From: Trichuris trichiura
Lineage: Eukaryota > Nematoda > Enoplea > Trichinellida > Trichuridae
DNA: 64,000 nt
Direction of reading: 5' to 3'
Assembly: GCA_037903355.1 (NCBI GenBank)
Contig: JBAJFE010000062.1
Span: 1,674,001-1,738,000, forward strand
Position numbers and translations under genes: made by a program. The notes under the pieces are model-generated. The model saw only the letters and a list, made by a program, of their open reading frames with translations, was not told the origin of the DNA and did no database searches. This document shows positions 30,901-62,394 of this stretch, piece by piece (positions within the stretch are counted from its first letter, which is position 1; every line of letters begins with the position of its first letter).

Positions 30901-33900
30901 CATTGCTAAGTTATGATACTGAGTGCAATTTCTCCAAAGACTTAAAAAAAAGCGTGCTACGTCGAGACGATGATTTTCTGTGACCTAAAAGTTCGAACTG
31001 TCATTTTCTTCCAGTCTCTAAGCCATCGCCTATTAAAGATTAATACTACAATAATGTTACATTTTTAAAACTCACGTCAATATAACCTACAGGACATATG
31101 TTCTGCATTGAAAATAAAGGCATTTTGATTAAGAAGCATACGAATAAACTAAGTAAAAAGTTTTGCAAGCGTGAGTACGAGCATAGGATATTGACTACTA
31201 CGCGGTAATAATGAAAGCTCACATTCTTGAAAACGTTGTGTCTTGGTACGGGACCATATATTTTCATAATGAAAAAACTTTATTACGGATCGGTTCCCGT
31301 TTATGTATATAAAAGATACTCCGTAGCTTTCGGGTCATTCGAGACCCGTCATCAGCGGTCTAAAGTTGTAAATAATTAGTTGTAATAAATTGTTAATTAT
31401 TAATTAATAATATTTACAACTTTAGACCGCTGATGACGGGTCTCGAATGACCCGAAAGCTCCGGAGTATCTTTTATATACATAAACGGGAACCGATCCGT
31501 AATAAAGTTTTTTCATTATGAGCTCACATTCTTGACTTAAGCTTAGTCCTTTACAAATGGGAATGGTTCAGAAAAAGGAATTCACAAAGACGCCAAACCC
31601 CATTTTTTTAATTTCAAACTTTGATGCCTATTTTTGAATAAACCTTTATTTTTGAAACAGTTTTTCCTGACGGACTGTCGAAATTCCTTAAAATAACATT
31701 TACGAATATAAGCTCAACTACGGTTGAACAATGGCTGAGCTTTCAGTATTGGAGGGCTCCCGAAAGCTCTTTCCCGACGTATCCGTATTTAGATCAATAG
31801 GTAATAAATTTGTACAACTACGCTTTTAAAATTAACAGGAATAAACATTGAAAATAAAACCAATAGTACAAGTCGACCAAGCCAATTTCGCGCCTTAAAA
31901 AATGCGTATTACGTAAAGACGCTTAAGCAAAAGTCCAATTTATAATTTACTTACGATAACACTGCTTACTTTTTTATTCTTTTTTTCTCCTTTTCTTTGT
32001 AATAAAAATACTTTATAAATCTTCGGTACATTTTCAAGCAAAATTTCATTTAAAAACGGTAGCGGTCAAAATTCTGAAAGTGGAAACCCTGAATAGGTCG
32101 AAAATGCAAAATTTAGTCTTGCAGCAGTTCTGCAAGAATACATCCCTTACCTACAAGATGCTAATGCACAACTGCTGCAAGACTAAACTTTGCATTTTCG
32201 AACTATAGGATTTCGACTTTCGGAATCTTGGTTCTATCCCATTCAAGAATAGCCGCCAAAGCTTGAAATAACAAAAACTGTAGTTATAATATTTTTGTAA
32301 CAACCGAGTAGGTTTACTTACTACCAATAAAGTCACATTACGTTGTCCTGATTGTCCCATGTCTCAGTGACGCGAACCTCTTTTCATTGGCACTTCGTCT
32401 GGACGATAAGCGGCTTACTACGACTATATGCGTTTAAGCTTTACCTTAACAGTGTCATATGCAACGTTTATTTTAAAAGTTAAAGGAAAAAAGAAAATCT
32501 GAGTAACTAAGGTTTGAATACATTTCAAAATGCTTTGTTCGCTTCACCGCGTAATTGACTTGAGCTATTTCATGAATACGAGCTTCCTTGCTCGACTTTC
32601 AAATTTCAAACAGCGGGTTGACAGCCATGCAACTTTTAGCTTTTCTAACTTCGGCTGAACGTTTCAAATAAGACACTTATGACTAAACTGAATCAAAATT
32701 TAAGCTCGTCAGTTATTTGGCATCATAGCTTATGGCTTGGAAATTACGTTAAATTATATCTGCGAACTAAAGTTATTAACAGAAATCGCCAAAATGATCT
32801 AACGCCTTTAAAATAATACTAGGAAGCTTTTGGGCCCATACCTTGCTGCTACCATTTTCAGAGAACAAGTTGACCAGATCCGTTTCGTTCACATAGTTGC
32901 ACTCGACAAGATAACGAAAAGCTACTACGCGCAGAGCATCCCTGTCGCCTGGATTCACGTCAATGGGAACATTCAGACAGCAGAGACGCAAAGCCTTTTG
33001 CAGAGAGTCGAAAGAGAATTGAACAGGGCTGAAGATTTTGTCTACAAGCTGTTTGAGCTCCAAGTTGACATCCGATTGCATCAAAATGTTATCAAGGCCT
33101 CGAATATTTATCCAATCACTCTGACGGCATGTTGGATCAATGGAGAACTTTTTGTACTTGACGACAAAGCCTTTTCGACTTGCCCAAAGACCAAAAAATC
33201 TCGATTCAACAAGATGGAAGTCGATCAAGTCGTACTCGAACGCTTCAAAATTAGTTAAAAGATGTATTGTCCATCTTCGATTCATCTTTTCGCCGCGAAG
33301 AACGTAGAAGCGGCTGACATTGCCAACACAGATGTAAGCAACGAAGCATACGCTGCTTTCAAGGGGAAAACACTTTATGCGCCACTTTGAACCATCCATC
33401 CAAGAAGGAGGTACTGAATGGTTCCCGCAGAATACGCTTAGAGCCTCGTTGAAATCGAAATGGACAACTGCGCTGCGTTGGTTGCAACACCAAAGACGAA
33501 GCCTGCAATCAAAGGACAACGTGCACAGGGTCAGTTCGGAACGCGGGTTGACAAAGCAAAGACTGGTTGCCGATTCGAAGCAGAACGTTTCGCTTGGAGC
33601 CCAAGAAGTAAAGAGACCACTCCAAAGTTGCTTCAGACGTGAACCTTGCCAAAGGATTTCCTGAGTTGGAGAATCTGTTGAAGCGTAAGGACCAAACCTG
33701 ACCAATAAAATGCAACTATCCTCAACGGCAAGAGCAAATACCGCTTCCTCATTTTTGGTAAGGGCGCAAGCAGATGCGTAAGGAGGCTCGCTTGTTGGAC
33801 ACGAGTAGCTGAACGAGTTTTGAGCATTTTTTATGTTTGATTCTTTTAACGTGGAAAGCGCTGAAAAGCTTCGCAATTCGGCCACGTCCAACAGTGGATG

Positions 33901-34263
33901 CTTCAGGACTATCCTATAAGTAGCTGCGGTCGTTGCCACCAGAAGGTACAGTCTTTTGTCGGTCTCGAAAATGGTCGTTCCCCTCAGAACGACTTCATTT
34001 GTAAAACGAAGAGACAAAGAACCAAGGGGGATATCCTCGGTAAAACTTCGCTCTTCCAACAACAGGTCCTGACCAAGGGCGCGCCACATAATAAAACGGT
34101 TCTTAAACTTTTCGTCAACACCGGTTCTATCACTTCCATAGCTGAACCAACCGCTTGTAGGGTCACTCTTCAATTCGGCCAGAGTGCAAACCGCGCTACT
34201 TTCGCCTAGTATCAATTTGGGTCCGTCATGACGGAATGCTTCGCTGCAGCAGATTAGTTGCAT
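27921..34263 (-). CDS. NUP160: Nucleoporin NUP160 (Y-complex), five exons or so
   Basis: NUP160 is a scaffold subunit of the nuclear pore Y-complex (Nup107-160). The first long exon (32781-34263) is the beta-propeller, with KNRFIMWRALGQDLLLEE and VDEKFK matching the family's N-terminal blade. The next exons make the helical solenoid: LWPESGCLPVFECL (about 29980), NAYYDMLYAYFVKRLNYRRAA (about 29330) and HFRKVDAYHLLLFLFEFGRL (about 28210), with stop at 27921. Introns I could phase are 30906-32780 (1.9 kb), 30277-30324 (48 bp) and 28683-29178. I take ATG 34263, which follows the acceptor-like TTTTTAGCTTACAG, over the ATG at 34305; the latter would add a signal-peptide-like stretch that is out of place in a nucleoporin. 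The large intron holds a PLE hairpin and another palindrome. Confidence 0.85.
31321..31358 (-). ncRNA. Hammerhead ribozyme-like motif (copy b, antisense arm)
   Basis: Mirror of the sense-arm motif on the minus strand: CUGAUGA (plus-strand TCATCAG, 31349-31355), GAAA (plus TTTC, 31328-31331), AGCU, cleavage nucleotide A, CGG. The A at the cleavage site differs from the C in the other arm, so the arms have diverged but keep the rule that it is not G. Confidence 0.65.
31427..31464 (+). ncRNA. Hammerhead ribozyme-like motif (copy b, sense arm)
   Basis: CCG then CUGAUGA (31430-31436), an unpaired C, stem II GGGUC/GACCC with a 6-7 nt loop, GAA (31454-31456), AGCU as a minimal self-complementary stem III, C as cleavage nucleotide, and CGG as the 3' half of stem I. 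Confidence 0.7.
32071..32228. repeat. Imperfect palindrome in the NUP160 intron
   Basis: Left arm 32071-32135 and right arm 32155-32228, about 20 bp apart. The core match is TTTAGTCTTGCAGCAGTT against AACTGCTGCAAGACTAAA, extending outward through CGAAAATGC/GCATTTTCG to a weaker match at GAAAGT/ACTTTC. No target duplication was found. It is probably a MITE or folded-back repeat, distinct from the PLE hairpin 600 bp away. Confidence 0.6.
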
Positions 34264-34309
34264 GCTGTAAGCTAAAAACACGCTTATTTGAATAAGAATA
34301 TGCAAATAC

Positions 34310-35982
34310 TAATGTTTCATGGAAAAGCGGGAAACCGCAGCTGTCATATGGTGTTCAACTTTCCAATACTAAAATTATCTCTGGACCATGCGAACAAGCA
34401 AACCTTAAATTCGATAAGTTATTTACTTATCAAGGAGAGAGACCGGAAGAAGCAGGGCCTACTTAGCAGATTACAACCAGATCGAGCATTGTTCCGAATA
34501 AGGAAATCGCTAGACCGACATGTCCCATTAGTTTTAAAAAGCATATAAAAAAACCCGTATCGCTGAAGCTGTTTATACCGCATAATTAAAGCAACGAATG
34601 CTGCTGTTTTTCAATCGACTGGTCATTACGAAAATAAGACAGAAAATCCAAAACAAACACCAGATTACCTAAACTATATTCTGTCCGTGTATCGTAACAA
34701 TATTGAGCTGTAAACAAACCAGTTAATGCTCGAGAGACATATCAAAGAACAAACAAGACATTGAAAGTATCCGCATAACGGCGATCACAAACCGTACACT
34801 GCAAAACCCTGCGGGCAGTTAAATAAATAGTATTTCGCCAACGTATTCGTTCTGCGACTGCACTTGCTTAGTGGACGATCGCCAGCGTGATCCAATGATA
34901 CTTGCATTAAAATATACACGCCAAAAGTTTGTAGCAATAAATGCTAAGTGCTCGGTAGACAGTGTTTACGTGTCCACCGCTTGAATGGGATTGCAGCGAA
35001 AAAGTAAGCTGCAATTTGTGCCGCAAATAAGGCTTAGTATTCTAAACGTGGTTTAATATGTCACCAGCTAAATAAGTTAGCAACGGAAAACAATTTCTAA
35101 ATTCCACGATTCACAGTGGAGACGTAAATGAAACTAAACTGTTAGATTTCACAAAACCTTAAGCTAAACGCATAGTGTTTTTATTCATTTAATATTTGGC
35201 TTAGATGGAAAATTGTACCTACCGATCGCAATTCACAGAGCAATTTATATAGCGTTCAGGATAACGGTCCAACGTGAGACAGGAAAAATAGTTTGACGGG
35301 AAAATAAGAAATCCACGCCCGCTAAGAAAAGTTAGGCATCGTACTCTGTTTAAAAATGTTCTACACGACTGTACAACTCAGACAAAAAAGAACCATTACA
35401 GTACTTATGCGGTGTGCCAGAAAAGTGACTGGTTAACTTTCATTTGTTGGCGAATGCCTCACTGTTCCAGCTGTTCATAATGTTAAATTTGTTTTATTAA
35501 CAATTTCAAATTATAGGTCGTAGCCAACCTGAGAAAGTTAAATAAATTTGAGTTTTTTCATTTCTGCGTCCTCTGTCATACTGTAGCTTGGCAGGCCATC
35601 CTGTTCTACCATTTCCTAAATCTGTGCGTAAACGTAAGACCTATATCTTAACTTATGCTCACGTAAGAGCAGCACAGAATTGTCGCAAGCTCGCCAGTAA
35701 GGGCAGAACAAGATAGTCGCTTGTTTAACAGAAAGGAACCTGCATTTCTCATACGGTAGGGCGCACGACGTTTAACTAGTTGACGCTTAAGAGATAATTA
35801 AAATAGTTAAGGCTGCGAGTCATCATTATTTTTTTGAGCAGCAAATCATCTGAGATTATTACTTTTAAGCGTAAGTACAAAATCGTTTACTGCACCGATA
35901 TTGAAGAACATTTTGTATGAAACTAAAGATGCAATTTCTGGTAGGTACATAAATTCATTTCAATCGGGTGATGCTTCTTAAT
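34310..35982. other. Intergenic DNA between the NuMA-like gene and NUP160
   Basis: No coding sequence recognised. It should contain the NUP160 promoter and possibly a 5' exon. One copy of the dispersed ~190-bp repeat lies at 35575-35765. Confidence 0.45.
35575..35765 (+). repeat. Dispersed ~190-bp repeat family, copy A
   Basis: Begins CATACTGTAGCTTGGCAGGC, contains GCGTAAACGTAAGACCTATA and GCTCACGTAAGAGCAG, and ends GGAACCTGCATTTCTCATAC GGTAGGGCG. Copies at 62.4 kb (same strand) and 63.1 kb (opposite strand) share all of these blocks in order. It has no open frame, so it is probably a MITE or SINE-like repeat. Confidence 0.65.
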
Positions 35983-39370: not shown

Positions 39371-39399
39371 AGAAGCAAAGTGAATGTAATATGTTCGGT

Positions 39400-45994: not shown

Positions 45995-46100
45995 ATCCAA
46001 TATGCGTCTTGAAAATGTGGTTTTTTCGTACGGGACCGTATGTTATCATAATGCGAAAGCTTTATTACGGAATAATTTCCGTTTAATGTGTTAAATAACT

Positions 46101-46138
46101 CCGGAGCTTTCGGGTCGACCGAGACCCGTCTTCAGCGG
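46101..46138 (-). ncRNA. Hammerhead ribozyme-like motif (PLE copy c, left arm)
   Basis: On the minus strand: CCG, CUGAAGA (plus TCTTCAG, 46129-46135), C, GGGUC/GACCC with loop, GAA, AGCU, C, CGG. Identical in core to the right-arm motif of this element. Confidence 0.68.
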
Positions 46139-46140
46139 CC

Positions 46141-48673
46141 AGATATTTGGAACATACACGTATTAAAGCGGGTCTTACTCAAGGCCAACTGACCTTCTTA
46201 CTGAAATGCAGAGACCATAGAATTCTACCGAAGTGCTTCCAACTAAAATGGGGTCAGAACGTGGATAGTCACTCAAAACGAATCCTATTTTCCGCTGGAT
46301 TATCTCTGCTCAAAAACGTTTAAAGACAACACAGATTTACACTAGCGAATTTGAGAGCAAACTACAACAACACACTCAGTTACCTCAGAAACCAACTACA
46401 GAGAGCAATTTACGATGCCTTGGTCAGACATGTGGATGTGGCCGCAGGAACAGTTTGCACAACACAAAAACAGGTATTAAAAAGGAAATTCGATAGACTT
46501 CAGGCGAGTTTCCCGGTGACTTCTCCAAATGTCTACAGCAATAGCTTACAAAGGACCACTGAGTCGGAACTAAATACAACAATAGTAGACCTCAGCTCCT
46601 CCTCTATAAGTGAAAGTGAAAAGGCCATACCAAAAAAGGGACTGAACTTCGTTCCGACCCCTAAACGACCACCCATTCTCGATATTATTACCTCAATTGA
46701 AGACAGCTTATCTTCGACAGACCCACAAAGAGCCAGACAGATTAAAAGCACTTTATCTACATTAATCTTAAATCACCGCTTCAACGCTACTCCTAACTTA
46801 AGTCGACATGAGATGAACTGCCTACATCAGCTTCGAAATCAGCCCAACAGAATTATCACTAAAGCCGATAAAGGGAAGAAAATAAGTTCTACTAGACAGA
46901 AACACCTACATGGAAAAAATGACAGCTATCTTAAGCACCAACAATTATGCCCCTTTACCCACTGACCCTACAGAGGCTTCCCGGAAAAATCTTCGATCTC
47001 TCCTCATCACATATGCCACAGAGACCAAAGAACCTAAAATCAACAAAATGATAACACATCTTAAGTTTGCATCGTACTTCAGACCCCCTGAGCTCTATAG
47101 TCTCCCAAAAGTACACAAACCAGGGATTCCAATGAGACCAATAGTCTCCACCATTAATAGTATCACAAGTGAAATCAGCCGATACTTAGGAACGATCATC
47201 AAACCACTTACTGGCAAAGAGCCGTTTTTTATCAAAAATAGCAAAACTTTTGTCAACGAAATCCGGAGTCACTACCTAGAACCAGATGAGATTCTGGTTG
47301 ATTATGATGTAAAAGAACTATTCCCGAGCATCCCCATATCAGATACACTTGAGATCCTATACAATCTTCTCAATGCAGACACAAGTCTACCCACCAGAAC
47401 TAAACTAAATCCCTTTCACATTGTCAAATTGGTTTCCTTTTGCATGGAAGAAGGCAACCATTTCACTTTTGATAACAAGTACTACAAACAATCTAGCGGA
47501 GTACCTATGGGCAGCCCCTTATCTCCAGTATTAGCAGAAATATTTATGGAAAGCTTTGAAAGACAGATGTTCGCAACGGTAGACAGACACATAGCTCCAC
47601 GCCTTTTCAAAAGGTACGTAGACGACATATTCGTAATTATTAAAGCTGGAAAGGAAGAACAATTTTTACAATTCCTCAAGAACGTCTGCCCAAGCCAAAT
47701 CGTTTTCACAATGGAAAAAGACGACAACGACACCCTACTCTTTCTAGACGCTTTGATTATTCGCACAAACGATGGGTTAAAAACCAGAGTATATAGAAAA
47801 CCCACGCACATGGATCAGTACCTCAACTTTTCATCACCTCACCCCAGATTAGTAATGCGTGGTATCCTCTCTGGAATGATAGACCGAGCAATCAAATTAT
47901 GCAGTCCTGAATATCTTCAACCAGAGTTCAACTACATTCGAAAAATTTTCTGCAAGAACGGATATCCCAGGTCCTTTATTAGCCAAGTGCTCAACTACAA
48001 GCTTCGCAAACGTGAATCTAGGGCAGAAAACGCTGCCCTAGATTAGCACCAGCCATGCTTAGTTATTCCCTATGTGGCAAGCTTAGGAGAAAAAATTACC
48101 CGGTTAGGAAGAACATTAGGTTTCAGAGTTTTCTTCAAAAGCTCCCCTAACCTCAGATCAATTCTTCGCTCGGACAAAACAAAAATCCCAACAAACAAGA
48201 AAACAGGATTAGTATACGCAGTCGAATGCTCTTGCTCAGGAATCTATATTGGCAAAATGGGGAACACCTTGGAACATAGATCTAATGAACACTTAAAAAA
48301 GCTTACAAGTTACAATAATGCAAAGGCAATGCTCAATAGCAGTGGCTATGGAACTACACAAAGAGGAAGACCAATTTTAAACCCAATAATCACCATGGAA
48401 AAAGCCAAACAAGCCTCTGCTGTGGCAGAACACGCCACACAATGTAACCAAACGCTCAACCCAAAAGTCTTATGTTATGAAAAGAACCTACGATTAAGAA
48501 GAATCAAAGAAGCCCTTTACATGAGACACAACCTCACATACAACCGCGTCCAAGGAGCAGATGTAAGTGAAATGTGGACAAATATCGTGACGCGTTACGA
48601 CTGCTGCTCAATAATTGGACGTGATACAAGAACACATGGAGCAAGTGAAAGAAGAAATAATCACCGCACATGA
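46141..48673 (+). pseudogene. PLE polyprotein: reverse transcriptase plus GIY-YIG endonuclease, lightly damaged
   Basis: The N-terminal region has LTFLLKCRDH at about 46182. The RT palm has VDYDVKELFPSIP (first catalytic Asp, about 47300), SGVPMGSPLSP (about 47500) and RYVDDIFVI (catalytic YVDD, about 47615). The endonuclease part (about 48195-48560) has KTGLVYAVEC then SGIYIGKMG, the GIY-YIG pair, then HRSNEHL and AVAEHATQCNQ, as in PLE nucleases. Lesions seen: stop TAA at 46321, one frame change between about 46875 and 46910, and stop TAG at 48044 between RT and nuclease. Long parts (46910-48043, 48074-48673) are still open. The last stop could be a natural boundary, but EN-positive PLEs normally encode one protein. 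Confidence 0.85.
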
Positions 48674-48811
48674 AAGAAATGCGAAAAATGGACAAATCAC
48701 ATACCATACAATCAGAAAACCACCAACAGAGAACTTTAAAACACCCGCTTTAAACCATGGAAACAACAGAAGACTCAAGTCACGCGCACAAGTTATATCC
48801 ATAGCTCACAA

Positions 48812-48849
48812 CCGCTGAAGACGGGTCTCGGTCGACCCGAAAGCTCCGG
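48812..48849 (+). ncRNA. Hammerhead ribozyme-like motif (PLE copy c, right arm, sense)
   Basis: CCG, CUGAAGA (48815-48821), C, stem II GGGUC/GACCC, GAA (48839-48841), AGCU, C, CGG. It is in the sense of the coding region and would be present at the 3' end of an element transcript, where self-cleavage could set an RNA end. Confidence 0.7.
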
Positions 48850-49097
48850 AGTTATTTAACACATTAAACAGGAATTATTCCGTAATAAAACTTTCACATT
48901 ATGAATCCAATATGCGGTAGGAAAAGCAAACTATCAGACATGGGAGTAATTATGAAATAAGTGCAGTTTACATTCCGGTACAAACCTCGAATATTTTCCC
49001 CTGAACCTAATGGAAGCATCAACATATTAATTGAGGTGCATCCTATATTAATTGATGTATACTGTGAGGAACATGACTGCACATAACAGCAATCTTT

Positions 49098-49630
49098 TTG
49101 TAAATGCAACTTCTTGGTACGGGACCGTATAGTTTCATTTCGAGTTTCTTTTACGGAAAGCTTGTCCCGTTGAAAAATTTTTAATATTCCGAAGCTTTCG
49201 GGTCAACCGAGTCCCGTCTTCAGCGGTGTAAAAATGATGTAATGAAATTTCGGGATGTTAAAATGACGTAACGAGTGTTGCGCGGGGATGACATGCGAAA
49301 GGATTTAACTGTTTAAAGGCGAGTGTTTTAAAGTAGTTTTCTTGGAGTCCTCTTCTGTCTGTCAGCTAGCCATTTCTCCTGTTGCGCATATATGTTGTTA
49401 TTCATGTATTTAATTCATTTCCCAGATTGTTCTGTGTTTGTAGCGCGTATATGTAGTCTTCTTTTAAGTAGAAAGTTCATTCCTCAGGTTCTACTCCATT
49501 TTATGTTGGTTTTCGCCAGTAGTTCTTGGTTTATTTAGTCAAGTGAGCAGCAGTTGGACCGGGTGAATGAACTATGGACAAGCAATTTTTCAACGGGACA
49601 AGCTTTCCGTAAAAGAAACTTGACATGAAA
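49098..49630 (+). mobile_element. Short PLE derivative with foreign interior (copy d)
   Basis: The flanking duplication AACAGCAATCTTT is at 49085-49097 and 49629-49641 (11-13 bp, edge uncertain). The tail has CTTGGTACGGGACC; the left arm runs from about 49130 to 49230. The right arm (about 49585-49630: TTTCAACGGGACAAGC, CTTTCCGTAAAAGAAAC) is shortened and lacks the hammerhead part. The roughly 350-bp interior (49235-49580) is not PLE coding sequence and I recognise nothing in it. It begins only about 180 bp downstream of the coding copy's duplication. Confidence 0.75.
49189..49226 (-). ncRNA. Hammerhead ribozyme-like motif (copy d)
   Basis: Minus strand: CCG, CUGAAGA (plus TCTTCAG, 49217-49223), C, stem II GGGAC/GACCC with one A-A mismatch, GAA, AGCU, U as cleavage nucleotide, CGG. 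Confidence 0.6.
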
Positions 49631-50609
49631 CAGCAATCTTTAGCTTTATTATAAATGGCTGCTTAATGCTAACGATAAAATGTGTGATAGTACAGCAGGC
49701 TAAATTTTGGATGTTCGTCTAAGTTGGAGCATTCTGACGACGCCTACTCACTCTCATAGAGTACCTAACCTGCTTTTAGTTAGTCGGTTGTATTACTGTG
49801 CCTCTTCACTGTTGTGTTGGCTGCTTATGAGTAAAGCTGTCCTATTCGCTCTCCAACTCCTACAGTCTAGTACAGAGGTAACCGTCTAATTTCTTATCGA
49901 ATCATCAGTCTCGACGCTTAGAGCTGTCTGGTCTTCATGCCAATAATAAACCAGAGTGACAGACCGCATTCAGAAGCTAATAGATTAATTCAGGTAATAA
50001 GCATGCAAATGATCAGCTGCAGAAGTGCTTTCTGGTTAAAACTTTCATTATTTTTTAAAATTTTAACTTGTTGGTGAAAAGCCTTTAAAACTGTTATTGC
50101 TCCATCTTTGACGTGCAGGCCTAGGCAGAGCAAGAATAACATCAAAAAGCTTTTGCCCAATCGTACTGACTCGCAAAGGTCTGGAGTACACCCGCCTCCG
50201 TTGTTATTGTTAGTAAACTTTTCCTAAAGGATAGCTAATTTTCGTTGCATTCAAATCTTCGCACTGAGAACGTAATATCGCCGCCACCAGGTGTACAAGA
50301 GCGTTGGAAATCCTGGGCCAAACAGATCAAAAGATGTTATCAAAAACATGCTGATCGTGTAGGACCGCATGTAAGCTCTCGTTGCTTCTTTAATCGTCGT
50401 CGAGTTGCAAAGTTATTGTTCCTATTCGACTAACTGGTATTTTACCAGAGTCAGAGGCTTCTCTAAGGCCAAGAGCCTTGTTGTACCGTGTGAATCCGTT
50501 CAGACAGACAATAAGCGTTAATTAAGATACCGTAAACGTCTGAAACCTGAACAACGTACTCACCAGTTTTCGCGTATTTCGTCCATAAGAAATCACAACT
50601 TATGTAATT

Positions 50610-50700: not shown

Positions 50701-52515
50701 TATAGAATTGTTCTGTCTTTTCTCTAACAATTTACTCGTCCATTCGCTGGTATGGTACTTTGAGGTTTATTTACAGACACATCAAGCAGGCCAAATCCGT
50801 GAACCGAAGATCAACTATGAAACATACGAGCTTTCAAAATACCGTTACAATGTTTTTCACTTTCGATTACGTGATGCAATAGACTTATTGTATGTGTATC
50901 GTGGTAGGTCTTGAGTAATAAGCGGAAAGCGTCACGTTGTTCAAGACAAACTTTGCTGTCGTCTCTACGAAAAGTCGACGTCGTTAGTAATCGCAAGCAA
51001 GCAATAGGTGGCGCTAGTGTACCTGTCAGTAACATAGGTTTGCCGCTGAGTTATGCAAATTATCATTCTTATCTCCTCTCTCTTGCGCGTGCGCGCGCAC
51101 CTTCGTTTTGTTAGCTCGGCAGCCGTAGGAATCCTCGTTCTTTTTACTATCACCGTCGGTTGCTGCTTTTTCGAAACAAAATAATTTTACTCCTCTACAG
51201 GTACATTCAGTCTCATGACGGCTGGATTCTATAATTGCATTAAAATTTTGCTTTTCACCTCGAAGCAGCCCATAAACTGATACTGAAAACTTAGTTTTCA
51301 TGTCGCTTATAGCAAGCCCTTTTTTTCGCACTCACCCAACGCTATAAATGGCCTATTCGAAAAAAAGAAAGTTGGTGCGGAGTGTTCAACTATTTAAAAG
51401 GTAATGGAGGAACGATTATTTCGTTGTCGAGCTTAAAAGCAAGTCTGTTTGCTTGATTTGTGCAGATGCGGCTGCTGCGGTGAAAAGAACTTATCTGGAA
51501 CGGCATGCATTACAGCTCAAATCATGGATGGCTGAATGAATTACGAGGCCAACTGCTTTTGGAGGGAATCAATGTGTTTCAGCGAGTCGCTTTCTTTAGG
51601 CCTCATAGCAACTGGAGATAAGGGAAGCCGGCAAAACAGATCCGTACCTTCGGAACAAGGATTGGTTCTAAGGGCTGAACCGGTCGGGCTGATGTTTCGA
51701 AGCGTGTTTGGTGCGCTCGCCTGGCGTCGCTTGCTCGCCGGACCTTACTTACGCTTAGTCGAGTCACTTCTTCTCCAGCCGCAGTCAGTAACGAAGCCTG
51801 CGCGCGGACGACTTCAGCTGTGTGCGCTTGTCCTGCTTGCGACAAGCCACTTCATCCGGCATTGAACTGCCGACCTAGAACTCGCATGGACACGAGGAAT
51901 CGGACTGTATGGTTAAAACAAAGCATTGCGACGGACGGTGATCGGTGTTGACGCAATATGATTTCTGCCCAGTGCTTTGAATGTTGAAGAGAAGAAATTC
52001 AACCAAGCGCGGGTAAATCGCTGGAGTAACTATGACTCTCTTGTTCCTGAGGCTTCTTGCTGATGGTTCAGTTAAACCTGCTGACGCGCCAAGGAGTCGC
52101 GGGTGGGCTCAAGGATACCGGCTACGGGTCTTCTCCCAGGCTGGCGTTCTAGGGTTACTACTTTGTTTGCTCCAGGCTTCGGCGGGTTACCGTTTCTCAC
52201 CGGCATCGCCACTAAGGCGGTGCAGGAGGGGGCCTATCCGGCCAGGTGCCGTATAAGGGGGACGCTTCCGCTGGGACTCTTTCGGTCTCCAGTTGTCGTT
52301 CCCTGGTAGCCTGGGCAGTGACGGCCCCCGTTGGAGAGAGTTGTGATGACTCTTTCCTGCCTGCCTTTGCCGCCCTTATCCAACGCCACCTCCTCGTGGT
52401 CAGGAACGCAAGTACCTCAGCGGGTCGACCGCTGAGGGAAACAAACGGTGTTGGGTTGCGTGAGCGAACTCGGGTGTTGTTGCTTCTGCAGTAACACGAA
52501 GGTTGGCTCACGCTC

Positions 52516-52926: not shown

Positions 52927-52928
52927 AA

Positions 52929-53273: not shown

Positions 53274-53523
53274 ATCGTTAGTATCTCACGCTTACGGGTC
53301 TGTTTTACCTGTTCAATCAGCCGTTTCTGCGTCCGCACCTGTTTTACCGAAGAGCGGACATATTTTATCCGACGAATCGACGCTTCCTACGTCTGAAGAA
53401 GTTTTACCAATCGGTCACACTGTTTTACCGAAAACATCTGCCTCAGTTTTATCGACCGAGCCAACTGTTTTACCAATGGTTTTGCCGAATCTGAATGATA
53501 ACGGTGTGGATGATAATGGGTAG
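53116..53523 (+). pseudogene. R2-like linker with VLP repeats
   Basis: Starts with VEMIKGQKRKSRYKE, the conserved IKG-x-RR end of the Myb region. After that comes a linker in which VLP or ILS/VLS recurs seven or so times at spacings that are multiples of three bases (21, 24 or 39). The codons keep the same DNA octamer GTTTTACC. Ends at TAG 53521-53523; the frame reopens immediately and shows a helical segment (LLLEHLIDVL) before a second stop at 53746. Confidence 0.6.
53302..53474 (+). repeat. Degenerate tandem repeat around GTTTTACC
   Basis: GTTTTACC occurs exactly at 53302, 53341, 53401, 53422 and 53467, with variants TTTTATCC at 53363 and GTTTTATC at 53446. The intervals are 39, 60 (with the variant dividing it into about 21 and 39), 21, 24 and 21 bp. 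It encodes the repeated Val-Leu-Pro of the R2-like linker. Confidence 0.6.
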
Positions 53524-53790
53524 CAGGCGTCTCATGCCCCTTCGGAAGTGCTGTTATTGGAACATTTGATCGATGTTTTAACAGCGAGTTCCTGCTGCGA
53601 GGCTACAGTTGGATCACTCCTCCAGGCCCTCAATGTTTTAGCTGGGCTAGCCTTACAGGGGCGCCACATCTTGGACGATACGGCTGAAGCTATTTTAAAA
53701 TTTATTTTACCGCTACCCAAGCGCGGACGCGACCCGGCGTGCAATTAGGCAAGTCTACCAGCGCCGACCACAAGCAGAAAGCAGAAACAA

Positions 53791-55695
53791 TTGCGATATC
53801 GGCAGCTCAAACGGTTTTACAACACAAACAGGACTCGACTTGCGGAAGTCGTCCTCGACGGTGTCCCGCCGATGGAGCACGAAGTGCCTTTCGCAGACCG
53901 TGTTGCGTCTTACTCAGAGGCCTTCGGAAAGTGTTCACCTGCTGGTAATGCTACATATCGGCTAAAGCGATTTCAACGAGCAACGTGGGTGCGAAAGAGT
54001 GAACTGAATTTACTGATTTCACCCGCTGAAGTAAGGGTTGTCCCGTTGAAAATCTCACGCAAGTCCGCATCCAGTCCGAGCAGAGTGACAGTGGACCACG
54101 TGCGTGGCCTGGAGGAAGCTGAGTTGGTTTTACTGGTTAATCTGTGGCTGTTTTACCAAAATGTGCCAGCGACTTTTAAAGTTTGCCGCACGGTTATACT
54201 TCCGAAAAAGAGCAAAGTGAGAGAACTGGGTGACTGTCGGCCAATCACAATTGCATCTGTATTTTATCCGCTTTTTACCAAGATTTTGGCAAATCGTTTG
54301 TCCAAGATGGTCGAACTGAATCGAAGGCAGAAAGATTTCATCAAAAAGACTGACGGGTGCGGTGAGAACATCTTTATGCTTAATGCTGCTCTTGCCCTCT
54401 CTCGTGGCGAACACAGAGAGTTAAGTCTGGCGACGCTAGATATCGCCAAAGCGTTTAACACGATGTCCCACGCTTCTGTCCGCCGTGCACTGTTGCGTCA
54501 AGGTGTGGGACATAGCGACGTGCAGCTCGTTGTAAACCTTCTGGCCAACTCGTTTACGCGAATCGAACACTCCTCTGGGGAGTCCAGCTTAATCCCCATG
54601 CGGAGAGGAGTAAAACAGGGCGACCCAATGTCGCCCTTGTTATTCTCATTGGTGATCGATGAGCTCCTCGATCAGTTGGACCAGAATGGTGGAGGCTTCA
54701 CTTTCACGAGTGATATTCAGGTGAACTGCCTTGCGTTCGCCGATGATCTACTCCTCCTGAGTGACAGCAAGGAAGGTCTGCAGAGCAACCTGCTACTTTG
54801 TAGCCAGTTTTTTACCGCTCGCAGCCTGTCCTTAAATGTACAAAAATGCTGTTCGCTCAGGCTGTATAAAGTTCCTAAGTGCCGATCGGTAGCTCTTGCA
54901 ACGGAGCCACAATTTTACCTAGATCCGGCACAGCCGCACACTGTTTTACCGGTTTTTACCGCGGCTCAATTTTTCAAATATTTGGGAGTAGAGTTCAATC
55001 CGTTTGGCCGGCGGCGCGATCAGATAGCTGGAGCGCGGGCGCTCCTGGATCGCGCATGCAAGGCAGAGTTGAAGCCGCAACAGAAGTTGGAGCTGATTCG
55101 AACGCACCCGCTGCCTAGGCTGCTCTACACTCTGACAGTGGGCAATCCATTTAGCCAGACAGCAGCAACCATCGACCAGATGGTTAGGCTAGCAGCTAAA
55201 AGAGTTCTCCGCCTATCCGTCAGTACTTCATCGAATGATTTTATCAGCTTGCCGAAAAGGAAAGGCGGACTTGGTTTTATACACGTGCAAGAAACGGCTG
55301 ACCGAAGTACGATTCGACTGCTTTTCAAAATGAGAACAAGCACGGACAAGGCTGCCCAGTGCGTTTCCGAGCTCTGGTTCAACCAGCGCCGCCGAAACCG
55401 TCTAATGAGGCGACAGGGCGTGCTAACGTTCACTGAAGCAAGCCTGCACGTCGCAAAGACAGCGCGGGCAGCAGCCCGCGAAGCGAATTTCCTGGCGTCA
55501 TATCAGGGAACAGGCTACAAGGAGTTCTGTGATTGGCGCATTAACTGGTGGATGTCCGGTGACGGGATGACGGGGCACAACTTCATCGCCGCACTAAAGG
55601 TGAGAACCTCTCTGGTCCCCACGCGCTTGCAGGCCCTTAGGGGCCGAGCTGAACCGGGAGACCAGAGAGTTTTCTCTGCCGGAAGTGCGGCGTAG
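53791..55695 (+). pseudogene. R2-like reverse transcriptase
   Basis: A 634-codon open frame. It begins after the stop at 53746 with RYRQLKRFYNTNRTRLAEVV, the standard lead-in of R2 RTs. RT blocks: ELVLLVNLWLFY (54120), ILPKKSKVRELGDCRPI (54200), LATLDIAKAFNTM (54430, first Asp), GVKQGDPMSPLLFSLVIDEL (54610), CLAFADDLLLLSD (54730, catalytic AxDD), and KYLGVEFNP thumb. The RT core is complete by eye. The frame leaves the family sequence at about 55670, just before the endonuclease knuckle. Confidence 0.8.
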
Positions 55696-56006
55696 TAAGT
55701 GGTGCCTCTGAATCCTTGATCCACATCTCCCAGAACTGCGCTTTCACAGGCGGACTTATAGTCCGGAGGCATAATGATATTATGAATAAGCTGATGCAGT
55801 CAGCTGAAGCCTCCGGATTCCATCTTGTACATGAGCCCGTGATCCGGCTAGAAGGTGAAACCTTCAAACCGGATCTGCTCCTCACAAGAGATGACTCCTG
55901 TTGGGTCATAGATGTAGCCGTTACTTCAGAGACTAATGACGCCCTAAATCGACGTCACGCCGAAAAATGCCGCGAATACAAGCGCATGAAGGAGGCTGCG
56001 TTGTAA
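55670..56006 (+). pseudogene. R2-like restriction-like endonuclease domain
   Basis: In the frame of 55716-56006, extended upstream: CRKCGVV, then HISQNC form the CCHC knuckle, followed by RRHNDI. KPDLLLTRDD and SCWVIDVAV hold the PD...D catalytic core of the restriction-like endonuclease that nicks the target in this clade. It ends at 56004-56006 (TAA), a normal C-terminus length. A one-base indel at about 55670 separates it from the RT frame. Confidence 0.75.
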
Positions 56007-58157
56007 GCCCACCGGCGCGAAGTACTTCGGCACCGGTGCTGTAGTTATCAGAGCTCGGGGCGGCTGGTGCAGCCAAAATGATGAGACGCTCAAGAAAGTG
56101 GGATGGAAGATGAGCGAAAAGTTTCAAGCTATATTTTGTGCACAATGGCCCTTGAAAGAACAGTGCAACTAATGAACTGGTTCACGAGGAGTACGACAGA
56201 ACTGGCATTTCTAGCGGATCAGCGGGGGCGGAACGCTCACAACCGGACTAGCCACGGAGTCGCCCACTCCATCTACGTGGCAATAGCAACAGGGGCACCG
56301 GAAAACATAAAGCAGCACGACTAGGCCACCATGTCCGGCCTGAGTCAAAATAACAAAAGCGAGGACGCCGCAAGCTGCTGCCAGTGGGCAGCCGTATCCT
56401 TCGCTTATGTTCGCAACCTTTTCGCTCTCGTCATCTTTTTGTTCTTCGCTTATTTATATTTATATTTTTTGTCGTTCGTAGCTGCGCGAACAGTTACTCA
56501 TTCAGTTTATGCCTTATTTCGTTAATCGCCTTGGTTGTTTAATAGTTAATGTTCATCCCTTCAGGGGCCAATTAAATGAAGATATGTACAAATAAAACAG
56601 GCTATGTTCTCTAGCTGAGTATATTCAACCGTATTGAGAAACGCAAAAAAAATATACGCTACGTGTTCATAAAGACACATATGGATGACCGCCAGCGACA
56701 GTCAGACGACCTCAGCTTGCTGAGCACACAGGAAAGAATATGAAAAGCACATTTCGCACAAGTAATGACCGCTGGCAGGATTTGACCGCTAGAACTTTCC
56801 GCTTGAGCATTGTGGCGATGTAGGTTGCTTATGGATGTTACCTGAACATAAGTAAGCTTTAAAAGCCAGAGCAAGGTTATCAAAGCGAGCCAAACCTTAA
56901 TGCAGCATTTCTGCCGCTCAAACTATCCAAGAAAATTTCTGAAAACGTTCCTTCACCAACTTTTTTGCAACTTGGTTAAAAAGCTGCTATTCACCGCTTC
57001 GCAAAGGTTGATACGATCTTCACCTTCCCGAGAATGCTTCTTTTCGGGAAAGGACCTTTTTCTTTGTCTGCCCGTAATTCCAATATCTTTTGCAGACGCA
57101 GCATTTTTTAGCGCTTTCCAACTTTTTCAAATAGTTTACATGCATGGAAACGGTTTGACGTCTATTCCATCGCTTACAGCTTGTGCACTTTTTCGCAGTC
57201 TATTTTTAATCGCTTTAGTTCGGCAGTGCGAATCGGACAGACATCAACTTGCCGAGGTGTCTGCAAAGAATTAGTGTGATAAACACATATGGGTGTGCGT
57301 GAAAGCAGTACAAGGAAGTGTTAACTTTCGGCGCAATGTTGCTATTCGAGTTTGCCTTTCGTGCCTATTGACGTTACGCATCGTTTAATGACATTACTAG
57401 CATGCAAGCTGCAACAGAACGTTGAACTACAGATCTACTCTTGGAAAAAGTTGTTTAACGCGCCATTCCTGTCGCGAAAAATTCCCAAAAAACGATTTGC
57501 TTAGCTTGGAAGAGCTACAAATACCCTTGCCATTGTTGTGTATTGAGTATGATTGCTTTGCACACAGCGTTTATGCCACACCCCTGCATATCTTCTTACT
57601 GTCGAATAATGGAGGGACATGTATGCCTTCCTTGGAAGTGTTCGCGCGAATAAACGTTCTAAGCTACGACAGGTCCGCATGTACTTCGCAAAGCTGATAC
57701 TGGTGACGAGGATGAGATTCTGACTTAAAGGCATTCAGTAATTAATTAGACGACGAGACATATGGCTATCAAATTCTATTGTTACACAATATCAGCCCTA
57801 ATATTGCGGACGGCCGTTAACCTTGTAGCGGACATAGCAATCTTGAGTTAACTGTTTAATAGGCTAACAACGACAACTGACCTAATTACCATATGGGACC
57901 AATAAAAGACGTTTTTGGGGACTGCGCTAAAAATGAGCAGGTGCAGGTCCGCTACAACCTGCTTACGCCAGTGGCCTCAGACAGGTTGACTTTTAAGCGT
58001 AACACATTGAAAGGAAACGAGTACAAACGCGCACACGCACACAAACATACACGTATGCATACATATACATACACATACGGAGTAGATACACATGCATTAA
58101 TAGAGTGCACATTCGTGCGGGTAAACGATGGCCAATTGGATCTAACTAGCGAGTGAT
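56007..58157. other. Probable 3' UTR of the R2-like element, then gene-free DNA
   Basis: Up to about 56600 the composition stays like that of the element and no other gene appears, so this may be its 3' UTR; a hydrophobic frame at 56331-56525 is probably chance. From 56600 on the DNA is AT-rich with no recognised protein. A CA/TA-rich low-complexity stretch (ACACGCACAC, CATACATATACATACA) lies at about 58028-58085. Confidence 0.4.
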
Positions 58158-58649
58158 TCAGCATTCTGTACTTAGGAAGTGGTCTGTTATTTTCCCAGTT
58201 AGCTTTGCCATGAGTTTGCCTATTGCCGCTCGTTGCCCGTCGGACAGTTTCATTTGGATGAGTTTCAGTAGCCTGTCGTTCTTAGGGTCCCAGCGTCCTC
58301 GCGCGCCCACGATGAAGGCGCATCCGGGATGTATTTTTCTCTGCTGAAGTAGGAGGGCCGCATTGATCTCAGTTGGCCCGGTAAAGTCGTCAGAACAATA
58401 GACACATCGGAAGGGACCTGGGACCGAAATGGGAGGTAGCGTTGTAGCAAGCTGCACGGGACTCATGGCCTCCTCGGTCATCCTCCGAGTTGGGGGAGCC
58501 GGGCGAACGCTCATAGCCAGTCGACCGTTTGTCTGCGTTGCCTTCAGAGGGTCATGTACAGGGTGCTTGATTAGCTTCTGTGCGCTTCTGCGGGACGCGA
58601 GTTGTTCTAAACGGCGCGTTTTCCATAGGTCCCTTTGAGCGTTCGACAC
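58158..58649 (-). pseudogene. Fragment of another R2-like element, N-terminal part
   Basis: A 163-codon frame with GPFRCVYCSDDF, then QQRKIHPGC: a zinc finger set in the same GPFRC context as finger 1 of the 52.5-kb element (GPFRCPLC). After it GARGRWDPKNDRLLKL resembles the Myb-like helix (RxRW). The frame ends at 58158 before any RT sequence, and nothing R2-like follows on the minus strand below it. It is an independent truncated copy in the opposite orientation. Confidence 0.6.
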
Positions 58650-60709
58650 TTCGCACTCGAGTCTTCATCTCCTGCTGCTTTTCAGCGAGACCCTTCTACT
58701 CACAAGCACGAATTTTTTCCAACGACCCGTATGCTAAAGGTAAAGTACAGTTATTTGTCGCTGTCTTACCTATTCTCGAGATTTAGAAATCTAAGAGTCA
58801 TATTTACTCTCCCTGTTTATCTGCACTTGGTTAAATTGCTACGGTTTGACATTCAGAGCTCTGGGCAGAAATCACATTGCATCATCGCCGATCGCCGGCC
58901 GGTTATACAATCCGATTCCTCGTATCCGTGCCCGTTCTAAGTCGGCTGTTGCTAGGTAGTTTCGGACCTAACCTGGATGAGACTGAGGGACTAGTTTGTG
59001 TGTGGTCTGAAGGATGAAGGCCTTCAGAATCGTCTTCCGGCTCACTCAGAGTTGGATCTCAACGACGCGTTACGCGAAACAATCATACTCAATACACAAC
59101 AGCCTTTTGAAGAAAACAAATCAATGGACTTACCAGACGAACTGTAGACGTACTCTGTCGCCCATGACCTGTTCTTTATGCAACCCATACGTAGGCTGCA
59201 CACACACGAACAGATCCCAGGCTAAAAGAGCGACAACCAAGCGATAATGTTGATGTGCAGGTTCTATCAGCTGACTGTAAGTGATTCTCTCCGGCGCAAA
59301 GAACGGGAAGCAGTAGAATTTTTCAAGCAGAGTCGGTGAATTCAAGTCAAAACGCACTCATTTTCTGCAAAAGCACAATCAAGTTATTTTCGCAGTAATG
59401 AAGAAACGTTAGCTTTTCGCTGGTAACTACTGAAATAATTGCTATGCCAATTAACTGGACCAAATGGCATTATAATAGATTGCGGGCGATTTTTTTTCTG
59501 GGACCAACCTATATCGATCAGCTTAATCGAATTACAGTATGCCAACAGGAACGCAGGTAAGGTTCAGAACAGAAGGTGCGCTAAAATAACTGGCCGCAGG
59601 TGGGCTGCTCGGCACCAAACGTATCAGAAGCAATCTGCTTTCAAAAAGAGCAAGGAAATCACGCGTGCTGACAAGAGGTACAAACGGTGCTTCTCGAATT
59701 ATTTCTGTCACATGAAAAGTTACGGAGAGGTATGAAAGACGATGTTCAATGTATGCGCAATTTTAATTTTTTTCCATAAAGTCATTTACACTTTCGCGTC
59801 GTAGTTTTAACGCGTCACATTACTAGGAGACTGTCAATTTTTTTTATCAGTAAATGGTAGGAACAAAAAAGTGAATCAAATTCAGCTCAACATTTTGCAC
59901 GCGTTGATAAACGCTCAGAACGAAGTACACTGCAGGCCGCGACTTTTTACTTACCTTTCTGAAGCGAGCTTTCTCAACTGACAAAGAAAATATGCTTGTG
60001 TGTACAGCCACTTAAAAAACCGCGTAGGATTTTTGATAAAAAGTCTGAACAATTTGTTCGCATAAGGGCCGCCAAACAATAGCTTGACTTAAATTCCTTA
60101 TTAAATCGAGAATTCTGCTAAACCTAAGGTAAGGACATGCAAGCCACTTCCGTGCAACGCATTTCCCGCTGTTTTAATGATAAGCGTTTTACTGTGAGAC
60201 TTTAAACAGTTTTCATTTTAAAGTCATGTTAACTTTAAAGTGTCTCACAAGTAAAGCAATTTCTCAGAACTTAAATTTCTTCAGTTTCAGACAACAACGA
60301 TTCCTTGTGAACATAAATTGGCTTAATAGGTTATCATTGCTCTTCAGTGAATTCCCATTTTGCCTAGCGTACATTACGCAACAGAAACATACATCACTTC
60401 GAAATTCAGGTATGGAACGTGGTTTTATTCCCTCTTCAAAGCTTAATCTCAGACCTTTTGAGAAAGAGTTCTAGTTTCGCGCCTCTGAAAAAATTTAATA
60501 ATCGGTGGGCTTTAAGTTCCTCCGTCTTGAAGTTGCATTCTATTTTAAAGGATAAAATTGTGCGCTAACGAACTGTTAAAAGATGTTCGCATAGTTCCGC
60601 ACCCACCGAAATTATGCAAACAAAAAAGGATAGCATATAGGCTAATCTTTAAGAAGTCTAAATTTCTTGACTGCATTCTGAACGGTTATTTATTATTATT
60701 ATTATTATT
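58650..60709. other. Gene-free stretch
   Basis: AT-rich DNA without recognisable coding sequence. The longest frames (59439-59735; 60226-60474) have no family resemblance. It ends in an (ATT)n tract at about 60685-60709, into which PLE copy e is inserted. Confidence 0.45.
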
Positions 60710-60910
60710 TTGAAGATATAATGTCTTCGTACGGGACCAAATAATTTCATTTTGGCTTCTTTTGTACGGATTTTCTGTGTCCCGTTGAATAGACTTTTAT
60801 TAATAAACTTTTCTTAATAAAATGTCCGTAGCTTTCGGGTCCGAACTTGACCCGTCATCAGCGGTCTAAGGATTGACGTACGTCAATCCGTACAAAAGAA
60901 GCCAAAATGA
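60710..60910 (+). mobile_element. Short PLE derivative inserted in an (ATT)n microsatellite (copy e)
   Basis: 201 bp. The tail begins TTGAAGATATAATG and contains TTCGTACGGGACC; the left arm has TCATTTTGGCTTCTTTTGTA and a hammerhead-like motif. The right arm is short (CGTACAAAAGAAGCCAAAATGA). A perfect 20-bp palindrome, GGATTGACGTACGTCAATCC, at 60870-60889 takes the place of the loop. ATT repeats lie directly on both sides, so the target duplication cannot be separated from the microsatellite. Confidence 0.75.
60826..60864 (-). ncRNA. Hammerhead ribozyme-like motif (copy e)
   Basis: Minus strand: CCG, CUGAUGA (plus TCATCAG, 60855-60861), C, stem II GGGUC/GACCC with 7-nt loop, GAA, AGCU, A as cleavage nucleotide, CGG. 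Confidence 0.68.
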
Positions 60911-61020
<110 letters not shown>

Positions 61021-61452
61021 GCGCTTGTGCACGCTTCTGCAAATGAAACTGACAGTGCGTTACACCTAATTACTTGAAAAACTGCAATTTATTTGAATTA
61101 TTTTTTTCGTCAATTTGCAAACTGATCTCACTATTTTAAACAGCTAAACATGCCCCTTTTACACGTACAAGCGAAATGCCGTGCATTTCGCGGCAAATGA
61201 TAATCAGGTTCCTTGGGTTGCTTTCATCGTTGCGTAAGTCTTCCATTCTGAAAGAAAAATATGGCAAACCGTTCAAACTTTGCGTTAGGCGAGTTCTGTT
61301 TTTTGGTACTCTAATTTTACACGCAACTCAGAACGACCAGCCTTGCGTAGGGTGAACAAGTTCATCTTATGTGCCATCATTAGTGATTTTCAAGTTAGAT
61401 GACAGAGAATATGCATTGCTGCTGCAGTGCCGATTTGTTTTAGAGCAAAACT

Positions 61453-61672
61453 ATGATGCGCGCAGAGCAGGACAATTTGGATGATAAAATGCTATCCACG
61501 GGAAACAACAAGAGAGTTCTTGACGTCATCTTCGAAGACGAAACGCTTTCCGATGAGAGCAGTCGTCCTGAAGAAAGAGAAGCTGCTCAGATAATTGGAA
61601 ATGCCTTTTCAGCTGGTCTGTACGTTCCCGGAGTTTTTAGTGATGGTGAAGATACGACGGAGAAAAGCGAGC
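61453..61672 (+). CDS. Acidic first exon of an unknown gene
   Basis: Opens with ATGATGCGC and encodes about 73 residues rich in Asp and Glu (VIFEDETLSDESSRPEEREA, then YVPGVFSDGEDTTEKSE). It ends at a strong splice donor, GTAAGTATAT, at 61673. The frame, start and donor together make a coding exon likely. I do not recognise the protein. The acidic, Ser-rich make-up suggests a disordered N-terminus. Further exons should lie downstream; I could not pick any out. PLE copy f (61839-62107) would sit in its first intron. Confidence 0.5.
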
Positions 61673-61900
61673 GTAAGTATATATCTCGACTGACGTTGTC
61701 ACTGTCTGTTATTTAAAATACGTAGTTTAAGTGTTTATTTTGTTTTACTTCAGTATGTTTACATGGCTTCAATCACTTCTTACATTTTTGTGATTAACCC
61801 AAGAGCTGTAAACAACTTATTGCCCAGAGCTTCGTATTGAAAATATCTTTATTACGGATTCTGCCCCGTTGAGATGTAAAATAGAAAGACTTTTTTCTCT

Positions 61901-61938
61901 CCGAAGCTTTCGGGTCTGCCGCGACCAGTCTTCAGCGG
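61901..61938 (-). ncRNA. Hammerhead ribozyme-like motif (copy f, sense arm)
   Basis: Minus strand, which is the sense of this reversed element: CCG, CUGAAGA (plus TCTTCAG, 61929-61935), C, stem II UGGUC/GACCC with one mismatch, GAA, AGCU, U, CGG. The core is intact. Confidence 0.62.
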
Positions 61939-61964
61939 TCCAACGAAATGTGTCCATCATTGGA

Positions 61965-62002
61965 CCGCTGAAGACGGGTCGCGGCAGACCCTAAAGCTTC
62001 GG
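61965..62002 (+). ncRNA. Hammerhead-like motif with broken core (copy f, antisense arm)
   Basis: Same layout as its partner (CUGAAGA at 61968-61974; AGCU, U, CGG), but GAAA has become UAAA at 61992-61995. That guanine is part of the invariant hammerhead core, so this arm should not cleave. Confidence 0.55.
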
Positions 62003-62394
62003 AGAGAGAAAAATCTTTTTGTTTTACATCTCAACGGGACAGAATCCGTAATAGAGATATCTTCAATATGAAAACACACAGTCCCGTACAAAAGCATCAC
62101 ATTTTCAAGAGCTTCGTATTATCAAAATCAAAATCATTTATGAATAGTAAGCCGTCAGAACTTTTATGCAATTAGCAATCCGTCATCAGCCTATCAAGGT
62201 TGACTGTAATTATGAAAGCATCCATACTGGTTTCAAAATGCCTGTTTTCGCTTGGTTTATAATGAAGCGCACAGCGATAAGTAGTAGCAACTTTAGCAAA
62301 GAAAATTTTTACTAACTTGCTTGAAAAAATTTCCCTTTGCAACGTAACTTCACGGTAAAATTTTTTTTTCTTATTCTGGATCTTGTCTCCTAGG

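Follow-up and report, generated by a model that had tools for sequence, protein, structure and literature searches.

Short inverted leader hairpins as probable insertion products of a Penelope-like element in Trichuris trichiura

Background

Penelope-like elements (PLEs) are a third class of retrotransposon, and to our knowledge the pathway by which they integrate is largely unknown. Here we analyze a stretch of 64,000 nucleotides from Trichuris trichiura (GenBank assembly GCA_037903355.1, contig JBAJFE010000062.1, positions 1,674,001 to 1,738,000; hereafter the window), which holds one coding PLE and four short elements with PLE ends, together with related copies elsewhere in the genome (72,691,324 bases in 62 contigs; the window sits on contig C26).

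The canonical Penelope elements Pen2a of Adineta vaga (PMC3846280) and PAc of Anolis (PMC11167929) have, in the available portions of those reports, a pseudo-long terminal repeat (pLTR), an inverted pLTR, a one-sided tail into the start of the open reading frame (ORF), short target duplications, a palindrome at the pLTR 5' end in some cases and a ribozyme in the PAc locus. The inverted pLTR of A. vaga is accompanied by a 31-bp tail (PMC3846280, in part), and the Anolis PLE protein is described, in the text available, as cutting and extending both strands and as initiating reverse transcription at two neighboring internal positions, the tail being the stretch between them (PMC11167929).

Minimal hammerhead ribozymes without much of stem III are found by the thousands in many animal genomes, some of them in PLE pLTRs; they may cut as dimers, and most dispersed motifs lie in non-coding DNA (PMC7761336, in the sections at hand). 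The dispersed minimal type I hammerheads of Cervera and de la Pena 2014 (via part of PMC7761336) resemble the motif described below in their near-absent stem III, in being dispersed in thousands and in lying in some cases in pLTRs. Metazoan retrozymes are likewise small, non-coding and hammerhead-bearing, but are direct tandem units giving circular RNAs (PMC7229834, in part), and PLEs have been suggested as their mobilizers (PMC7761336, in part). Inverted pLTRs, tails, ribozymes and trans-mobilized cargo in PLEs are already in print; among the matches listed by our literature search (titles and abstract openings, with partial coverage of the literature), we found no publication on leader-only inverted PLE hairpins.

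Results

Element ends and independent insertion

A first-pass annotation of the window had described the coding PLE (46007-48904) and four short elements (E1 to E4), and we located all five (Table 1). Self-BLAST recovered inverted-repeat arms in each of them (identity 93% in E1, 96% over 93 bp in the coding PLE, 96% over 48 bp in E2, 97% over 33 bp in E3 and 88% in E4), the one-sided tail is represented by a single tail core per element, and four of the five have separate target duplications, seen as 12-15 bp where 11-15 bp had been given. One description stood in part: the short elements contain no whole proteins, but the E2 interior is PLE 3'-end sequence and the tails read as ORF start. A hammerhead-like core is present in both arms of E1, the coding PLE and E4, and in a single arm of E2 and E3. 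The tip of E3 is a perfect palindrome (GACGTACGTC), and this element lies inside a (TTA)n run, so its target duplication is indeterminable.

The tail corresponds to the beginning of the PLE ORF. In L101, a coding copy, the pLTR finishes with ...CATTATG and the sequence of the ORF is MKTYGPVPRNHVFK..., which is the tail read in the sense direction. Reverse complementing the Y-G-P-V codons gives GTACGGGAC(C). All five window elements have a tail that reads as PLE ORF start, and in 95 tail-and-arm rows from the genome (some duplicate) an in-frame ATG is found in 90 of 92 readable tails. The tail peptide is mostly MK(T/I)Y(G/A)PV(P/R)RNH(V/I)F or a close variant, is similar across subfamilies and includes a stop codon in 16 of the 90 readings. 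Because the tail is the ORF start, elements end at the start codon on one side and some 14 codons into the ORF on the other; the two ends are at fixed points of the PLE message, and they are asymmetric. This layout fits the start sites of the Anolis PLE protein and the inverted pLTR and tail of Adineta.

From these ends the arms run back through the pLTR, mostly across the hammerhead-like motif, and meet at a tip. In 85 rows, themselves found by tail, the tail is one-sided and continues as an arm for which an inverted partner is present. Two rows had a tail flagged on both sides, L033 and L060 (its second row, ambiguous); the second tail of L033 was discarded as a chance match in the flank. 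Once 5 rows that are ambiguous and 2 that repeat window elements are removed, 75 of the 78 remaining elements have a target-duplication score of at least 8 (77 of 85 in all rows), compared with 41 of 425 mismatched flank pairs used as a control, in which the best score was 11. The short elements were thus inserted independently, nearly all with a matching target duplication of their own, as had been proposed, and their ends are those of PLEs. Each consists of inverted arms of one leader, with the tip on the RNA 5' side.

Abundance and orientation

The exact motif CTGANGACGGGT-N2..12-ACCCGAAAGC occurs at 832 + 809 places in the genome (1641) and its reversed control at none, which excludes a chance origin of the ribozyme motif. 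Genome searches gave at least 94 matches to an E1 query (40 of 1563 candidates scored) and at least 107 to the PLE reverse transcriptase (RT; 107 of 1793 candidates scored). We fetched 57 loci around a subset of the first 100 motif places listed, all on contig C1 (L101-L103 left out), and 36 of them proved to be short inverted elements, 12 to be linked to PLE coding sequence and 9 to be single arms or unclear; short copies are therefore more numerous than coding-linked ones in this sample, the outcome that the first-pass annotation had proposed to check. Of the 36, 32 were recognized by tail and arm and four by eye (L061, L062, L075 and L113, with L061 cut by the stretch end); the coding link was assigned by tblastn in the 25 C1 loci without a tail-and-arm row.

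Among the same first 100 motif places, 16 pairs of ribozymes lie less than 600 bp apart, and 14 of these are antisense-then-sense, 1 is direct (++) and 1 is opposite. Each of the 14 has one tail, and these pairs were found independently of the tail search (the search for tail cores allowed at most one mismatch, and a decayed second tail could escape it). The direct tandem layout of retrozymes was rejected on these counts (1 ++ against 14 -+). One locus expected to be a coding copy, L102 (G000:C1:1808400-1811400), proved instead to be an E1-type hairpin. More than 2 kb of other DNA, with CAGTAGAACC...GGTTCTACTG at its borders, splits the tip; by eye this insert resembles a transposon.

The hammerhead-like motif

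The leader motif agrees in sequence with a type I hammerhead in which AGCU is all that is left of stem III (ACCG-CUGANGA-(C)-GGGUC..GACCC-GAA-AGCU-H-CGGA). By sequence it has a predicted minimal type I core, a U-H site at which H is not G, and a stem I. Where GCT precedes, the base at H17 (hammerhead numbering) is C in 122, T in 16, A in 11 and G in 0 copies (149 of 159 distinct copies), and the ACCG/CGGA register of stem I pairs at 95, 89 and 93% in the 159 distinct but related copies. Conservation of the core is no evidence where it falls within the search pattern, as part of it does. The C between core and stem II is extra relative to the usual hammerhead motif, and the Rfam hammerhead models gave no match at gathering level in the window, nor any up to an E value of 10 in 48780-49260.

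The shared arm falls short of the complete ribozyme motif in 32 of 95 rows; arms that contain it in full must have been copied from RNA that was uncut there. Shorter arms end -4 to +10 nt from the predicted cut site in 13 of 29 cases, an interval chosen afterwards, and the direct 5' pLTR of L101 begins about 3 nt or less from the predicted cut (by eye). The shorter-arm ends are no more than suggestive of self-cleavage, and we set them aside as proof of it, given the post hoc interval and the palindromic nature of CTCCGGAG itself.

A preferred leader end in the E1 subfamily

The leader of the E1 subfamily begins at ATATTTACAAC. At 75 exact leader-start places genome-wide the preceding base is C in 45 and G in 18, C being what coding copies have at that position (these 45 include one or more hairpin tips, among them that of L018). 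The fetched sequence includes 56 leader-start places, of which 16 continue as coding PLE; at the other 40 junctions the preceding base is G in 20, A in 9, T in 7 and C in 4, counts in which L084 and L098 look like mutated coding continuations and some copies appear by both arms. The base ahead of the extra G is not constant: A in 10, T in 7, G in 2 and C in 1. Copying of a cap would leave an additional G at a fixed start, as in work on long interspersed nuclear elements (LINEs).

Arms, tips and interiors

We compared the arms of 63 elements with paired arms of at least 75 nt (126 arms). An arm's own partner is strictly its closest relative in 95 of 126 cases overall, against 0.8% by chance, and in 79 of 84 outside the E1 subfamily. 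In 21 hand-picked E1-type hairpins the arms reach GTTGTAAATAT or a point no more than about 3 nt from there, except the right arm of L029, and the tip filler beyond the arms differs from copy to copy. No private tip common to sites with different flanks was found among these 21 copies; L016 and L017 lie in the same flanks. In the tips of L013, L007, L025 and L094 the filler contains short units that recur, a pattern resembling the templated insertions of end joining.

Several longer hairpins (L064, L073, L087, L093, L095, L098, L100 and E2) run into PLE 3'-end sequence. Of 62 short rows, 20 had at least 35 nt of inner sequence for comparison with coding-linked copies (three of the 20 come from loci in the searched set). 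The interior of L073 matched L103, that of L087 matched L068 and L109, L095 matched L077 and L106, L100 matched L118 and L071, L093 matched PLE 3' ends, L064 matched L105, L098 matched L101 and L103, and E2 matched L117 and L070; the AT-rich filler inside L025 and L094 had no match in the coding-linked copies. By eye, the hairpin-subgroup changes CATCAACGG...CCGTTCC are common to L097 and the coding copy L103, with one mismatch in L010.

Single-arm leader insertions also occur (L066, L088, L104 and L116). They have target duplications, as judged by eye, and their 5' ends precede the ribozyme by roughly 20-35 nt; a tail is present in L104, and none was seen in L066, L088 or L116.

The coding PLE

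The coding PLE of the window is 5' truncated, its ORF start missing. It has an RT at 46886-48046 (Pfam RVT_1, E 5e-11), its relatives are RT proteins and the best two, with 63 and 78% identity, are from Trichuris suis. A putative GIY-YIG-like endonuclease is seen by motif only (VYAVEC..GIYIG in frame, about 48200-48300); Pfam gave no GIY-YIG endonuclease match in this fragment. PF01541, which we take to be GIY-YIG, is present in two of its relatives. Between the window copy and L101 we find a pLTR, an inverted pLTR, a one-sided tail continuous with the ORF start and a short target duplication, and from this pLTR and tail anatomy the element is probably of Penelope type. In two other coding PLEs, L033 and L034, the flanking inverted arms extend for at least about 900 bp (97 and 95% identical), so both cDNAs were long.

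Other features of the window

Coordinates are collected in Table 1. The further leader arm at 14616-14705 has no inverted partner that we noticed; its neighbors are retroelement-like frames, presumably of a BEL/Pao-type element, and a DUF5641 match lies at 12631-13269. A piece of 28S rRNA at 51904-52075 (Rfam LSU, E 2e-23) holds TAACTATGACTCTCTT, which we take to be the left side of the R2 target site, and the match to 28S weakens directly after that site. It lies upstream of a 648-aa reverse transcriptase frame (53749-55695) that we assume to be R2-like; the best relatives of this frame are Trichuris proteins. The best ten relatives of a second retroelement, besides the PLE, are from T. muris or T. 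suis.

Table 1. Elements of the PLE family in the window
Feature	Position	Strand	Description
E1 left target duplication	31216..31230		AGCTCACATTCTTGA, 15 bp; right copy 31521-31535
E1 tail	31231..31263	minus	Reads MKIYGPVPRHNVFK; resembles PLE ORF start (identity of tail and ORF start shown in L101)
E1 left arm	31264..31374	minus	pLTR leader; hammerhead-like core 31327-31355
E1 tip	31375..31409		AT-rich filler, unlike that of other E1-type copies examined
E1 right arm	31410..31520	plus	No tail; hammerhead-like core 31430-31458
Coding PLE target duplication	45995-46006 / 48905-48916		12 bp
Coding PLE tail	46007..46045	minus	Reads MITYGPVRKNHIFK
Coding PLE inverted pLTR arm	46046..46138	minus	Hammerhead-like core 46107-46135
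Coding PLE ORF pieces	46324..48673	plus	Shifted frames
Coding PLE right pLTR arm	48812..48904	plus	No tail; hammerhead-like core 48815-48843
E2 target duplication	49085-49097 / 49629-49641		13 bp
E2 tail and left arm	49098..49232	minus	Tail MKLYGPVPRSCIYK; core 49195-49223
E2 interior	49233..49583	minus	Antisense PLE 3'-end sequence; 76.6% to L117, E 4e-33
E2 right arm	49584..49628	plus	Short (~45 bp); no ribozyme or tail
E3	60710..60910		Tail MKLFGPVRRHYIFK; left arm with core 60832-60861; short right arm
E4 left arm	within 61839..62107	minus	No tail; core 61908-61935
E4 right arm	within 61839..62107	plus	Core 61968-61996; right-end tail MKTHSPVQKHHIFK
E4 target duplication	61826-61838 / 62108-62120		13 bp
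Further single PLE leader arm	14616..14705	plus	Hammerhead-like core 14626-14653

Discussion

We consider it probable that the PLE machinery generates each short element afresh at insertion, with the 5' leader (pLTR) of PLE RNA as template, by priming on both strands and joining of the two cDNAs. The enzyme would nick both target strands and prime reverse transcription internally on each, at two RNA sites, one near codon 14 and the other at the AUG; each cDNA would head to the RNA 5' end (in the E1 subfamily, an RNA starting at AUAUUUACAAC), and the two cDNA 3' ends would be annealed or end-joined, often with filler. The perfect-palindrome tips (L014, L092, L097 and E3) suit annealing of self-complementary cDNA ends. 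An RNA that starts in the leader would give a protein-free hairpin, and a tandem or read-through transcript would give one or two cDNAs that include the 3' end or the whole ORF, and so a coding copy with an inverted pLTR. The hairpins would then be the usual, dead-on-arrival product and no satellite. A more general form of this reading, for which we would give somewhat less than even chances, is that every PLE insertion primes the two strands asymmetrically (at about codon 14 and at the AUG) and that the cDNAs reach the capped 5' end of uncleaved mRNA; the hairpin would be the default and a coding element would come only from tandem transcripts. In this asymmetric scheme the default product is a protein-free leader hairpin because initiation adjoins the 5' end of the message.

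Several observations weigh against the two-strand reading. The E1-type inverted copies L073, L121, L122 and L123 have arms that run on into PLE 3' sequence, and because these arms continue as coding the leader end is a preference and not a rule. Of the 68 leader-start places of a second subfamily, 35 continue as coding, the preceding base being G in 9, C in 7, A in 2 and, by difference and including those 35, T in 50; the extra G was not clearly repeated there, and the preferred end with its extra G is therefore a feature of the E1 subfamily. That the leader start is the transcription start is something we infer. Within the E1 subfamily, whose copies are young and nearly alike, an arm's own partner is strictly closest in 16 of 42 cases; among the 21 E1-type copies we counted 88 differences between left and right arms, and in 17 instances two copies share such a difference, 10 of these instances falling in indel columns. 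Although their sites differ, L011 and L014 have three columns of left/right difference in one A-run in common, an asymmetry that could reflect a shared pair of source RNAs or a copied hairpin, and for which independent origin from one RNA is inadequate. The Anolis work, in the part available, reports no difference in start site between strands (PMC11167929), and here one end is tailed. Equal arm lengths, finally, also fit fold-back of one cDNA.

Such a fold-back is the main rival: a single cDNA is primed on one strand, its 3' end snaps back and copies itself, and the second strand stops before the tail. It would account for the near-equal arms and small loops of many copies and for within-copy arm identity outside the E1 subfamily. 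It could not directly make the loopless palindromic tips named above, however, and it gives no reason for copying to halt at the start codon; unequal arms are common (the 32 of 95 rows without the whole ribozyme in the shared arm), and the published biochemistry, as far as the available text goes, has both strands primed (PMC11167929). We regard it as unlikely, at perhaps one chance in a handful.

The first-pass annotation had read the short elements as a non-autonomous family that uses the PLE enzymes, comparable to miniature inverted-repeat transposable elements (MITEs) or retrozymes. As a mechanism, this would mean that transcripts of one source hairpin, or of a solo leader, are copied whole by those enzymes. 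The many young, similar copies with their own target duplications would suit such a satellite, as would the single-arm leader copies (L104, L066, L088 and L116, by eye) and the three-base arm asymmetry of L011 and L014. No private tip recurs at differently flanked sites among the 21 E1-type copies, however, the changes of a hairpin subgroup (L010 and L097) recur, by eye, in the coding copy L103, and several longer hairpins enter PLE 3' sequence. We rejected a self-propagating hairpin lineage on the differing tips and the arms that agree within a copy outside the E1 subfamily, with L011 and L014 as a caveat, and with the same caveat found no sign of copies descending from copies with the same internal structure, as in a MITE or satellite family; a satellite origin appears improbable. 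Internal deletion of full PLE insertions after they had inserted, to which apparent jumps inside an arm of some copies (E3, by eye) might point, is very improbable, as it would need repeated endpoints near the leader start with both ends kept, and the tips of the 21 E1-type copies vary around one point.

These elements differ from described systems in several ways. Abundant 5'-truncated or twin-primed LINE copies are dead by-products with target duplications, some with an inversion; here, by contrast, a single RNA region is the starting point of both arms, which together form a near-perfect palindrome. Canonical Penelope units enclose an ORF or cargo (PMC3846280 and PMC11167929, in the portions available), whereas leader hairpins make up 36 of the 57 sampled ribozyme loci here. 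Canonical Penelope copies in the rotifer A. vaga are few, alongside some solo pLTRs (PMC3846280, in part), whereas leader hairpins prevail in our sample. Retrozyme units are direct, whereas the arms here are inverted and direct pairs are rare. In contrast to the dispersed type I hammerheads, most of the sampled motifs here resolve into bounded insertions with tail and arms. What appears to be new is leader-only hairpins as the prevailing product, which we read, from sequence comparison, as what initiation inside the message, close to its 5' end, would probably yield.

The hairpins keep both the start and the stop points of reverse transcription, so that hundreds of natural insertions can be read as experiments, and they offer testable rules: each insertion should have a single tail, its 5' end should tend to fall at a preferred base next to an extra G, and both strands should be primed. 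Dispersed hammerhead motifs gain a possible origin in this genome. If the two-ended, asymmetric reading is true, it would explain the source of many dispersed minimal hammerheads of animals, and it would mean that near-perfect hairpins encoding double-stranded RNA are seeded against the PLE's own translation start.

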